Below are positions 55,797 through 59,136 of a stretch of 64,000 nucleotides of DNA, in pieces. Below the pieces are notes generated by a model. The model saw only the letters and a program-made list of their open reading frames with translations, ran no database searches and was not told where the DNA came from. A program made the translations under genes and the position numbers. The stretch comes from Bryobacteraceae bacterium (GTDB lineage: Bacteria; Acidobacteriota; Terriglobia; Bryobacterales; Bryobacteraceae): positions 1 through 64,000 of the forward strand of contig JAHCHE010000010.1 of assembly GCA_026129905.1 (NCBI GenBank). The letters run 5' to 3'. Position 1 is the stretch's first letter. Every line of letters begins with the position of its first letter.

Positions 55797-56387
55797 TCAG
55801 CGGTTCTCGATCAGCATCCGGATGGTCGCCGAGACGCCGGCCGGCTCCCGCGTGCCGTCGATCGTCCAGATCGATTCGTCGGCATAGTAATCGCGGAGCA
55901 TCTTGGATTCACGGCGATAGTCGGCCAGGCGCTGCTCCACGATTTCGGGCGCGTCCTCGGACGACCCGCGCTGGGCGCACCGCTCGCGCACCATGTTGTC
56001 GGGAATCCGGATCTCGATTACCACGGGCGACGGCAGGTCCTTCTCCTTGACCAGCGCGCCGAGATGCTCGGCCTGCTCGCGCGTGGACGGGTAGCCGTCA
56101 AGCGCGAAGCCCTGGCTGAGGTCCAGTGCATCCATCCGTTGGCGCACCAGGTCGCCGACGGCGCTGTCGGAACGCGTCAGCGGCCTCTGGTCTCCGGAAG
56201 CGCTATTCCGCTCCGCCAGCAGGTCCTCGATTGAGATCGTCGGAATGTTGTATTTGCGCTGCAGATAGTCGGCCTGCGTCGTCTTGCCGCTGGCCGGCGG
56301 GCCGATGAGGACCACCACCACCGGTTTCCGCGCCGGCTGGGCCAGCAGCGCGGCCGCCAGCAAAGGGAGGAAGTACCTGCTTTTCAT
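55797..56387 (-). CDS. Adenylate-kinase-like P-loop kinase with a signal peptide
   Basis: A 196-aa protein: an N-terminal export signal MKSRYFLPLLAAALLAQPA, then an NMP-kinase fold with P-loop VLIGPPASGKTTQADYLQRK near residue 27, ISIEDLLAERNS (NMP-binding region), the GFALDGYPSTREQAEHLGAL motif near 95 and RCAQRGSSEDAPEIVEQRL (lid-like arginines). The kinase motifs look intact, but the extra hydrophobic leader is unusual for this cytoplasmic family. GAGGGG is upstream of the ATG at 56387. Convergent with the sulfotransferase gene. Confidence 0.8.
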   Translation of the reverse strand: MKSRYFLPLLAAALLAQPARKPVVVVLIGPPASGKTTQADYLQRKYNIPTISIEDLLAERNSASGDQRPLTRSDSAVGDLVRQRMDALDLSQGFALDGYPSTREQAEHLGALVKEKDLPSPVVIEIRIPDNMVRERCAQRGSSEDAPEIVEQRLADYRRESKMLRDYYADESIWTIDGTREPAGVSATIRMLIENR

Positions 56388-56427: not shown

Positions 56428-57006
56428 TTACCGCATCCGCTCGGCCGTCACCGTTACCGGCACGCCTTTGGTCACCGAGTCGTACACGGGCGAGTACGTG
56501 GGGCCGAGTTTGTAGAGCTGTTCCAATTGCTCGTCCGTCATGTCGCCCTTGATCCGGAACCGAATGGCGATGTTCTGATAACCGTTGCGGACGCTCTTAT
56601 CGAGGCCGAGGAATCCTCGCAGGTCGATGTGTCCCTCGAGGGAGGATTCCACCTCTTCAACCCGGATGCCGTGCGCGGCGGCGTGGTAGACCATTGACGT
56701 CGTCACACAGGCGGCCAGCGCGTGCAGCAGGTACTCCACCGGGTTCGCGCCCCGGTCCTTGCCCAGCAGGACCGGCGGCTCGTCGGCGTCCAGCAGGAAG
56801 GTCTTGCCGCGATCCACCTCTTCCATCGCTCCGTAGAAGTTGTTCACCGCCGAACGGTTGTGTCCGCCGTCCAACCACTGGTTGTCGATGCGGAACTTGA
56901 ACCGCGCGATTCCCGGAGTGGCTTTCACGGCATCGATCGTCTTGAACAATTCGTCGACGTTGACGCCGTTAACCGTGGTTTTTTGCTCCATCTGAGTGGT
57001 TTGCAT
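56428..57006 (-). CDS. OsmC/Ohr-family protein
   Basis: A 192-aa protein of the OsmC/Ohr family: LLGKDRGANPVEYLLHALAA, then the peroxidatic-cysteine helix ALAACVTTSMVYHAAAHG near residue 98, and the family end YSPVYDSVTKGVPVTVTAER. The second cysteine position (usually CPV) is serine here, so classic thiol peroxidase activity would need another resolving thiol. Cytoplasmic. GAAGGG precedes the ATG at 57006. A candidate sigma-54 promoter and paired palindromes lie upstream, next to the end of a sigma-54 activator gene. Confidence 0.85.
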   Translation of the reverse strand: MQTTQMEQKTTVNGVNVDELFKTIDAVKATPGIARFKFRIDNQWLDGGHNRSAVNNFYGAMEEVDRGKTFLLDADEPPVLLGKDRGANPVEYLLHALAACVTTSMVYHAAAHGIRVEEVESSLEGHIDLRGFLGLDKSVRNGYQNIAIRFRIKGDMTDEQLEQLYKLGPTYSPVYDSVTKGVPVTVTAERMR

Positions 57007-57056
57007 TTTCTTTTTCCCTTCACCTTAGTCTGTTTTACTGCCCGCCAGATAAGAGC

Positions 57057-57071
57057 GCAGGTTCGCTTCCA
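57057..57071 (-). promoter_or_regulatory. Candidate sigma-54 promoter of osmC
   Basis: On the minus strand TGGAAGCGAACCTGC fits the -24/-12 frame TGGCACG-N4-TTGC at 9 of 11 fixed or strong positions if near matches count: GG and GC are exact and spaced by 10 bp. The transcript would start about 40 nt before the OsmC ATG. Weak by itself, stronger with the activator gene and palindromes nearby. Confidence 0.5.
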
Positions 57072-57156
57072 GAACCATTGCGGACGCCTCGACGCAGAAA
57101 ACAATGGGCTTGCGCGTATTCGGCGAGGTCCGCCGGGTCGCGTAATCTCATGACTT

Positions 57157-57195
57157 GCGAGATCTCGCGAGCTGGAGCCGCGAGTTCTCGCGAGC
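57157..57195 (-). promoter_or_regulatory. Paired 16-bp palindromic activator sites
   Basis: GCGAGATCTCGCGAGC (57157-57172) and GCGAGTTCTCGCGAGC (57180-57195) are direct repeats differing at one base, spaced 23 bp start to start, each containing an inverted repeat (GCGAGA/TCTCGC and CGCGAG/CTCGCG). They lie about 110-150 bp upstream of the predicted osmC transcript start, a usual place for enhancer sites of sigma-54 activators, and only 13 bp from the activator gene's stop. Confidence 0.75.
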
Positions 57196-57207
57196 CTTCG
57201 AGGCCGC

Positions 57208-59136
57208 TCAATGGAGCCGTCGAACTCCGAGGGCTTTCATGCGCGACGTCAGCGTCGAAGGAGGCATTCCCAGCATCCGCGCGGCGCCGTCCGGTCCCGA
57301 AATACGCCCGCCGGCGGCTTCGAGAGCACGCTCGATATTCGCGCGCTCGAGTTCCCGAAACTCACGTTCGGTGTACACTGGCGGCGTTGCCGGCTGATCC
57401 CCCGGTTCTGCCATAAGCGCCGTGGGGCGGGGAGGTAGAGCGTCAAAGCGCAGTCGGCCGTCGCGGGAGGTGATTGCCGCCCGCTCGATGACGTTCTGCA
57501 ACTCGCGAACATTGCCCGGCCAGTCGTAGGCGCACAGCGGCTCCAGGCACTCCGGCGGGAGCCCCATCGGTTCGCGCCCGATCCGCTGGCAGGATTGCTT
57601 CAGAAATCGGGCCGCCAGTTGCGGGATATCTTCACGCCGCTCCCGTAGCGGCGGCACCTTGATGGGAAACACGTTCAGCCGATAGTAGAGATCCTCGCGG
57701 AACTTGCCTTCTTTGATCTCGTCCAGGAGATTTCGGTTGGTGGCTGCAACCACCCGAACATCGACTTTTCGCGTGCGCGACCCTCCTACCGGCTCAAACT
57801 CCCCCTCCTGTAACACGCGCAACAGTTTCGCCTGCAAGTCGACGGGCAATTCACCGATCTCATCCAGAAAGATCGTGCCGCGGTCGGCGAGCGCGAAACG
57901 GCCCTCCCGCCGCAACGTCGCCCCGGTAAAAGCGCCGCGCTCATGCCCGAAAAATTCGCTCTCGATAAGTCCGGGGGCAATCGCGGCGCAGTTCACCTTG
58001 ATCAGGGGTTTTTGGGCTCGGCGGCCGGCGGCGTGCAGCGCGCGCGCCACTAGTTCCTTGCCGGTTCCCGTTTCGCCGCAGATGAGCACCGTCGCGTCGG
58101 TCGGCGCCGCCTGCGAAATCTGCCGCAGCAGGGCGAGCATCGGCGGGCTGTCTCCGAGAATTTCGCGGAAATTGTGAAGCTCTTCTATCTCCTGCTTGAA
58201 GTAGTTCGATTCGTTGGTCAGCGCGTCGATCCTCTGCTCGGCTTCGCGCTGATCCTCCACATTGCGCAGGATCAGCGTGAAGAAACCGGTACGCTGCGCT
58301 TCATACCGGGAAAGGCTGGCCTCCGCGGGGAACAGGCCTCCGTCCGCGCGCTGAGCGGTGAGCCCCCCAGGGATCCAAAGGTATTGCCGGTCCGATGGTA
58401 AAGAGTCCAACTCGGCCGCAAGACGGGACAGCTTCCGCCCGCTCTCCGGAGCGAGGAATTCGCGAAAATCGCGCCCCGCCATCTCAGTTGAACCGGCGCC
58501 GAACGTCTTGGCGGCCGAGCGGTTCGCTCGGGTTACCTTCAGGTGGGCGTCCAATTCGACGATGGCATCCATCGCGCTGTCGAGCAGGCGCGAAAGTTTC
58601 AGCTCCCGTTCCTGCGTCTCGGCTTCCGCCCGCAGCCGCTGCAGTTCCGCCGCCGCGCGGGCGGCGAAGATCCGGAAGAGCGCTTCATACCGCGGCGCGG
58701 CCGGCATCGGCTTGGTGTCGAGAATGGCCAGGTGCCCGAGTATCGAACCGTCGGCGCCGCAAAGCGGAGCGCCCATGTAGCTGACCGCGCGAAAGCCCTT
58801 CAGGTCCGGATCGCGGGGAAACAGCTCAATGATGTTCTCCGGGAAGTGAACCAGGCAGGCCTTCTCGATCACGGGTTCGCACGGCGTGCCGCTGATCCCG
58901 TATTCGTACTGTGGGATGTAGCGGTCCTCAAACCAGAACGAGAGCGCGCGCAGCCGCTTTGGCTGCGGCGCAAATTCGGTGACCCACGCGCCGGCCGCGC
59001 CGAGCGCGCCGGCCACGTTCCTCACCAGCGATGCGAAGAATCCCTCACCCGTGACGCCCGCCGTTCCTTCCAGGATGGCGCGGATGGCATCGTCTTCCGA
59101 CGCCGGCGCCGCGCGACTGCCGTAGCCAGGTTGCAC
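57208..59136 (-). CDS. Sigma-54-dependent activator with GAF and PAS domains
   Basis: A 642-aa regulator. Domains: GAF residues about 15-165; PAS about 185-300 (ELDAHLKVTRANRSAAKTFG); AAA+ ATPase about 340-575 with Walker A CGETGTGKELVARALH, the sigma-54-contact loop GAFTGA near residue 398, Walker B GTIFLDEIGELP and the arginine finger region FREDLYYRLNVFPIKVPPLR; Fis-type HTH at the C-terminus (GPDGAARMLGMPPSTLTSRMK). A GAF sensor suggests a small-molecule or redox signal. GGAGAG precedes the GTG at 59136. Palindromes adjacent to its stop are probably its binding sites for osmC. Confidence 0.94.
   Translation of the reverse strand: MQPGYGSRAAPASEDDAIRAILEGTAGVTGEGFFASLVRNVAGALGAAGAWVTEFAPQPKRLRALSFWFEDRYIPQYEYGISGTPCEPVIEKACLVHFPENIIELFPRDPDLKGFRAVSYMGAPLCGADGSILGHLAILDTKPMPAAPRYEALFRIFAARAAAELQRLRAEAETQERELKLSRLLDSAMDAIVELDAHLKVTRANRSAAKTFGAGSTEMAGRDFREFLAPESGRKLSRLAAELDSLPSDRQYLWIPGGLTAQRADGGLFPAEASLSRYEAQRTGFFTLILRNVEDQREAEQRIDALTNESNYFKQEIEELHNFREILGDSPPMLALLRQISQAAPTDATVLICGETGTGKELVARALHAAGRRAQKPLIKVNCAAIAPGLIESEFFGHERGAFTGATLRREGRFALADRGTIFLDEIGELPVDLQAKLLRVLQEGEFEPVGGSRTRKVDVRVVAATNRNLLDEIKEGKFREDLYYRLNVFPIKVPPLRERREDIPQLAARFLKQSCQRIGREPMGLPPECLEPLCAYDWPGNVRELQNVIERAAITSRDGRLRFDALPPRPTALMAEPGDQPATPPVYTEREFRELERANIERALEAAGGRISGPDGAARMLGMPPSTLTSRMKALGVRRLH

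Follow-up and report, generated by a model that had tools for sequence, protein, structure and literature searches.

The 201-bp gap at positions 57007-57207 of the window (the whole 64,000-nucleotide stretch of Bryobacteraceae DNA analysed here) is probably a sigma-54 control region, in which an activator encoded beside the gap would act on three sites and open the promoter of an osmC-like gene through a -24/-12 element. On the minus strand, the gene for a GAF-PAS-AAA+-HTH sigma-54 activator (bEBP; 57208-59136, 642 residues, GTG start) comes first, followed by the gap and then by the osmC-like gene (56428-57006, 192 residues), whose product matches Pfam family PF02566 with 67.4 bits against a cut-off of 27.5. 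As a control region of this kind presupposes, rpoN is present: the genome (8.57 Mb in 71 contigs) holds one match to the sigma-54 DNA-binding domain.

A 14-bp palindrome, approximately CRCGARATYTCGYG, occurs three times in the gap, at steps of 23 and 17 bp. Read on the minus strand, site 1 is CGCGAGAACTCGCG (57179-57192; 15.1 bits), site 2 is CGCGAGATCTCGCA (57156-57169; 16.5 bits), lying 23 bp from site 1, and site 3 is CATGAGATTACGCG (57139-57152; 13.4 bits), at a distance from site 2 of 17 bp, which 9 of 11 homologues share. These scores are from a matrix of 36 sites taken from 13 other loci with the window left out; the motif was first written down from loci that included the window, so that its choice was not blind, though the matrix itself excludes the window. 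Against this matrix the array totals 45.0 bits, a value that no dinucleotide-shuffled version of the gap reached in 2000 trials (maximum 17.4 bits). Even the score of site 3 is attained at just 0.008% of window positions, and the best score outside the array is 9.8 bits among the top five positions listed for each strand. The first-pass annotation had reported two near-identical 16-bp repeats here. They lie exactly where it placed them (57157-57172 and 57180-57195) and are the sole copies without mismatch in the genome, in which up to two mismatches are found at 32 places as against 12 for the reversed control. As a description of the whole enhancer the two repeats fall short, since the third copy had been missed and the unit is better read as the 14-bp palindrome; their adjacency to the activator gene stands, at a measured distance of 12 bp from its reading frame rather than 13 bp.

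Two of the three units lie at most 55 bp from the end of the activator gene and are self-complementary, and they could be taken for an RNA hairpin or terminator of that gene instead of protein-binding sites. This seems scarcely credible, as a simple scan of 56900-57300 found no terminator-like site, the spacing of the sites is conserved, one homologous locus (L033) carries the array ahead of osmC and not behind the activator, and the sister loci described below hold it between divergent genes.

A protein search of named genomes gave 80 loci that were kept, amongst which 12 (L032-L042 and L045) encode close homologues of the activator with at least 50% identity over most of the protein. L035 was dropped because its contig ends before the flank, which leaves 11 readable loci; L042 begins at a contig end and matches only over residues 115-640. 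These records are metagenome-assembled genomes labelled as Nitrospirales, Nitrospira, Deltaproteobacteria, Dadabacteria, Acidobacteria, Desulfobulbaceae, Desulfobacteraceae and Verrucomicrobia. osmC adjoins the activator gene in nine of the 11, with one small open reading frame between them in L034 and with osmC preceding the activator in L033. A pair of sites 16-18 bp apart is found in all 11 (exactly 17 bp in nine), compared with 30 of 6500 shuffled gaps, and a further site stands 21-24 bp before the pair in eight; site 1 is poor in three of the 11 (L037, L040 and L045). Moreover, every one of the 11 loci has a TGGC-type element, 80-86 bp on from where the last site starts, and in eight the GG-N10-GC core is exact.

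Within the window's family, a close osmC gene was found in 7 of 237 genomes. The array is present at all three of the loci where the activator adjoins osmC (42-48 bits) and at none of the four where it does not (L203, L205, L206 and L207). These four were read for about 1.5 kb on either side (less for L206); one scores 19.8 bits inside osmC itself and the others score at most 6.5. As neither activator nor array lies alongside, osmC at these four loci must be controlled otherwise. The site pair and TGGC-type element at 11 of 11 orthologous loci, together with this co-occurrence in the family (3 of 3 against 0 of 4), make the reading of the array as an enhancer of the adjacent activator, acting on osmC, well supported by comparison of sequences. 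Across the window's order (257 genomes), two genomes besides the window's own hold a close full-length orthologue of the activator, L113 (64% identity) and L114 (54%), both with osmC and with arrays at 23 and 17 bp. The distance from site to promoter is 68 bp in L113 and 59 bp in L114, outside the range of 80-86 bp, which counts against the main reading. Only four candidates were scored per genome in this search, so paralogues are under-counted.

From the phylum to which G259 (the Nitrospira record, genome of L034) belongs, 295 genomes were taken, and 27 of them have the activator. The triple array scores at least 27 bits at 24 of these 27 loci and 21.7, 23.8 and 5.3 bits at the remaining three; their genomes are related, so that the 27 do not count as independent events, and one locus carries both the names L034 and L163. 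osmC lies within the stretch read at 17 of the 27 and was not found in that stretch at the other 10. This last count, and the genes other than osmC that lie downstream at 2 of the 11 close homologues (L036 and L040), would fit an operator that serves mainly another purpose, such as autoregulation or another regulator, with the adjacency of osmC incidental. We consider this very unlikely, given that 9 of the 11, and L113 and L114 too, have osmC next to the activator, and that the array is absent from the four family osmC loci that have no adjoining activator.

Six other loci with homologous activators from the order search (L115-L120) have no array, their best score being 7.6 bits, and in a further set of 68 (L043-L111, L045 excepted) a score of 20 bits is attained at L046 alone. 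L046 (6806, minus strand) is a Woeseia activator, PAS-like by eye, with an array of 33.8 bits, and there TGGCACGATCTATGCA precedes a gene for a small, secreted-looking protein.

The promoter candidate is TGGAAGCGAACCTGCG (57056-57071, minus strand), which is degenerate and retains TGG-N10-GC. It is the sole TGG-N10-GC from site 3 to the osmC start and carries the GG-N10-GC core. It lies 81 bp past the start of site 3, within the range of 80-86 bp seen in homologues, and 49 bp ahead of the osmC ATG, in agreement with the roughly 50 bp given by the first-pass annotation. By chance, a TGG-N10-GC core arises at 80-86 bp in 0.9% of mononucleotide shuffles, and at 58-95 bp in 4.7%. The sequence itself tells a different story: the matrix gives it -0.7 bits (0.3 if the background is flat), the CA[CT] that relatives commonly show in the -24 block is missing, and the match to a TGGCAC-N5-TTGCT-type consensus is not beyond chance. 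Since 1931 of 2000 shuffles hold a match as good, the element is called only promoter-like. It is backed by position and not by sequence, and is probably a sigma-54 promoter, albeit a weak one as judged from its letters. The earlier description of a complete-looking control region holds for the enhancer beside its activator and for the place of the -24/-12-like element; it does not hold for completeness, this element being degenerate.

Two neighbouring candidates were rejected for want of GC at -12, one at 57074-57089, which has a higher score (2.5 bits), and one at 57032-57047. A genome-wide search with a generic -24/-12 pattern was of no use, since its 257 matches did not outnumber the 304 of the reversed control.

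The degeneracy of the element raises the alternative that the enhancer is intact while the sigma-54 promoter of the window has decayed, osmC transcripts arising for the most part by read-through of the activator gene, which lies 201 bp upstream on the same strand, or from an unrecognised promoter. We regard this as unlikely. TGG-N10-GC is retained at the conserved distance, where shuffling yields it so seldom, and a simple scan of 56900-57300 found no sigma-70-like site for osmC. In L113, the nearest relative, the promoter element is divergent too (2.2 bits against a matrix made without it), which suggests that promoters are looser in this lineage.

For a sigma-54 control region of this layout, the following course of events can be envisaged. 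The activator made from the upstream gene would bind the three 14-bp palindromes, presumably as dimers, and three bound dimers would bring together six subunits, which could seed an AAA+ hexamer. On sensing of a signal by the GAF domain, the PAS domain or both, the GAFTGA loops would engage the sigma-54 RNA polymerase waiting at the -24/-12 element some 80 bp downstream, and the osmC promoter would then be opened by hydrolysis of ATP.

The protein features of the activator are consistent with such a role. Pfam identifies PAS, Sigma54_activat (PF00158, 239.1 bits), an AAA lid and a Fis-type C-terminal helix-turn-helix (HTH_8, 34.8 bits against a cut-off of 22). The GAFTGA loop, reported earlier as intact, is so, and all 12 aligned orthologues have both GAFTGA and GETGTGKE unchanged. 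The proposed GAF-PAS-AAA+ architecture is borne out by Pfam for PAS and AAA+. For GAF there is no Pfam match in the window protein, and its assignment draws on GAF_2 matches in 6 of the 12 aligned orthologues (E at most 0.05) and on a structure predicted for residues 1-310 (mean pLDDT 87), which in a fold search resembles GAF/PAS sensors, including a chain of the DhaR(N) complex and phytochromes. Among the 50 matches listed, the rmsd is above 10 in all but one, and therefore the GAF and PAS domains were not superposed as one body. A role in redox sensing was weighed for Cys86, which lies in a TPCE motif of the GAF domain and is conserved in 12 of 12. As comparable GAF domains from other sources have this residue too, it was not taken as evidence of such a role.

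In the OsmC-like protein, Cys100 is the single invariant cysteine in all 12 aligned sequences (L042 left out), in keeping with the suggestion of a thiol protein; the GAF-sensed signal put forward with it is supported in part, since the activator has a PAS domain as well. PF02566 and the cysteine at the peroxidatic position are shared with the OsmC/Ohr two-cysteine hydroperoxide reductases, which differ in having a resolving cysteine. All 12 sequences have Ser172-Pro173 where OhrB 2bjo, 9wo1 and 1lql show Cys-Pro, so the pair of peroxidatic and resolving cysteines that defines a two-cysteine peroxidase is not found. Because Ser172 replaces the resolving cysteine in all aligned members, a classical two-cysteine peroxidase cycle would not be expected. 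Among solved structures the nearest is chain 2opl_A (E 1e-63, residues 6-190), which belongs to the same subfamily, with the same cysteine and likewise Ser-Pro in place of Cys-Pro. It is entered as a 'hypothetical protein', which we take to be an OsmC-like protein from Geobacter.

Nitrogen, motility and transport genes are the best-known targets of sigma-54. The full-text literature searched, from which most subscription papers are missing, gave no account of osmC or CMD genes placed under sigma-54 by an activator of this type; the mechanism is of a known kind, a sigma-54 enhancer with NorR-like three sites, and the regulon is apparently undescribed. The nearest parallel is NorR/norVW of E. 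coli, likewise a GAF-controlled sigma-54 activator (of GAF-AAA+-HTH build) with three enhancer sites, and NorR requires these three sites, which scaffold a higher-order oligomer (PMC2941729). The window activator resembles the NorR model over AAA+ and HTH (residues 298-639), its score of 367 against NF003451 being under the cut-off of 476. Unlike NorR, it has an additional PAS domain, its sites are palindromes at uneven steps of 23 and 17 bp, and its target is osmC and not norVW. The AAA+ profile is also similar to that of FhlA- and NifA-type activators, with scores that fall well short of the equivalog thresholds (351 against 830 and 367.8 against 528.85), and none of the 25 NCBIfam activator models listed reached its cut-off.

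The array extends to a sister family of activators. The order search yielded 21 loci (L121-L141; L132 and L134 are nearly identical) with other activators that are 51-58% identical to that of the window over AAA+ and HTH; one that was scanned, L132, has a GAF match and no PAS match. In all 21 the activator gene is divergent from a CMD/AhpD-like gene (16 loci) or an alpha/beta hydrolase gene (5 loci), and the array scores at least 20 bits in 17, where the maximum in 60 shuffled 4-kb sequences is 8.7. In a Dadabacteria genome (G260) with two such loci, one array lies between divergent genes for OsmC and a SAM methyltransferase (L161, 3028-6747); on the osmC side TGGCATGCCCCTTGCA follows at 83 bp, and on the methyltransferase side a similar -24/-12-like element can be seen by eye. 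The Nitrospira genome G259 has a second array before a CMD gene, beside genes for a MEDS-domain protein and a GAF sigma-54 activator (L159, 531-4116). In G555 (L190 and L208) an RND efflux pair comes after the array, and beyond this pair stands a second array (35.6 bits), which precedes a gene resembling that of the small membrane protein of L034. Other neighbours include methyltransferases, SnoaL-like proteins and beta-lactamase-fold proteins.

Since relatives of the activator adjoin OsmC, AhpD/CMD-like, hydrolase, methyltransferase and, once, RND-efflux genes with the same array, the physiological role is likely to be a response to a reactive organic compound (a peroxide, an electrophile or similar), a class of signal that we infer from the neighbouring genes alone. 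A broader proposition appears to us evenly balanced: that one enhancer code, three copies of CRCGARATYTCGYG at about 22 and 17 bp, is common to a clade of sigma-54 activators with different sensors, which would drive OsmC, AhpD/CMD-like, alpha/beta-hydrolase and methyltransferase genes as a detoxification regulon across several phyla, the fixed uneven spacing reflecting three dimers that build one hexamer. That a GAF-PAS activator, an uneven three-site enhancer and an OsmC target recur together in distant bacteria, and that the sister family has the same array with CMD and hydrolase genes, gives a testable regulon and signal class, and the natural series of arrays offers a means to ask how enhancer spacing directs hexamer assembly. 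The recurrence in distant bacteria points to a little-studied detoxification circuit.

Wider use of the array in the window's own genome was sought with the paired-site pattern at up to three mismatches, which returned only the window and one place with three mismatches (G000:C28, L157), taken as chance on viewing; this suggests that osmC may be the sole target of the activator in this genome. L143, L147, L151, L153, L155, L156 and L158 were also taken as chance on viewing; site pairs were also matched in L160 and L162.

Two further genes flank the pair on the same strand. A VOC/glyoxalase-type gene (PF00903; 59162-59938, minus strand) ends 25 bp ahead of the activator start and, given this short gap and the shared strand, may be co-transcribed with the activator. 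At 55797-56387 (minus strand), 40 bp downstream of osmC, lies a gene for an adenylate-kinase-like protein (PF00406), the N-terminus of which looks by eye like a signal peptide.
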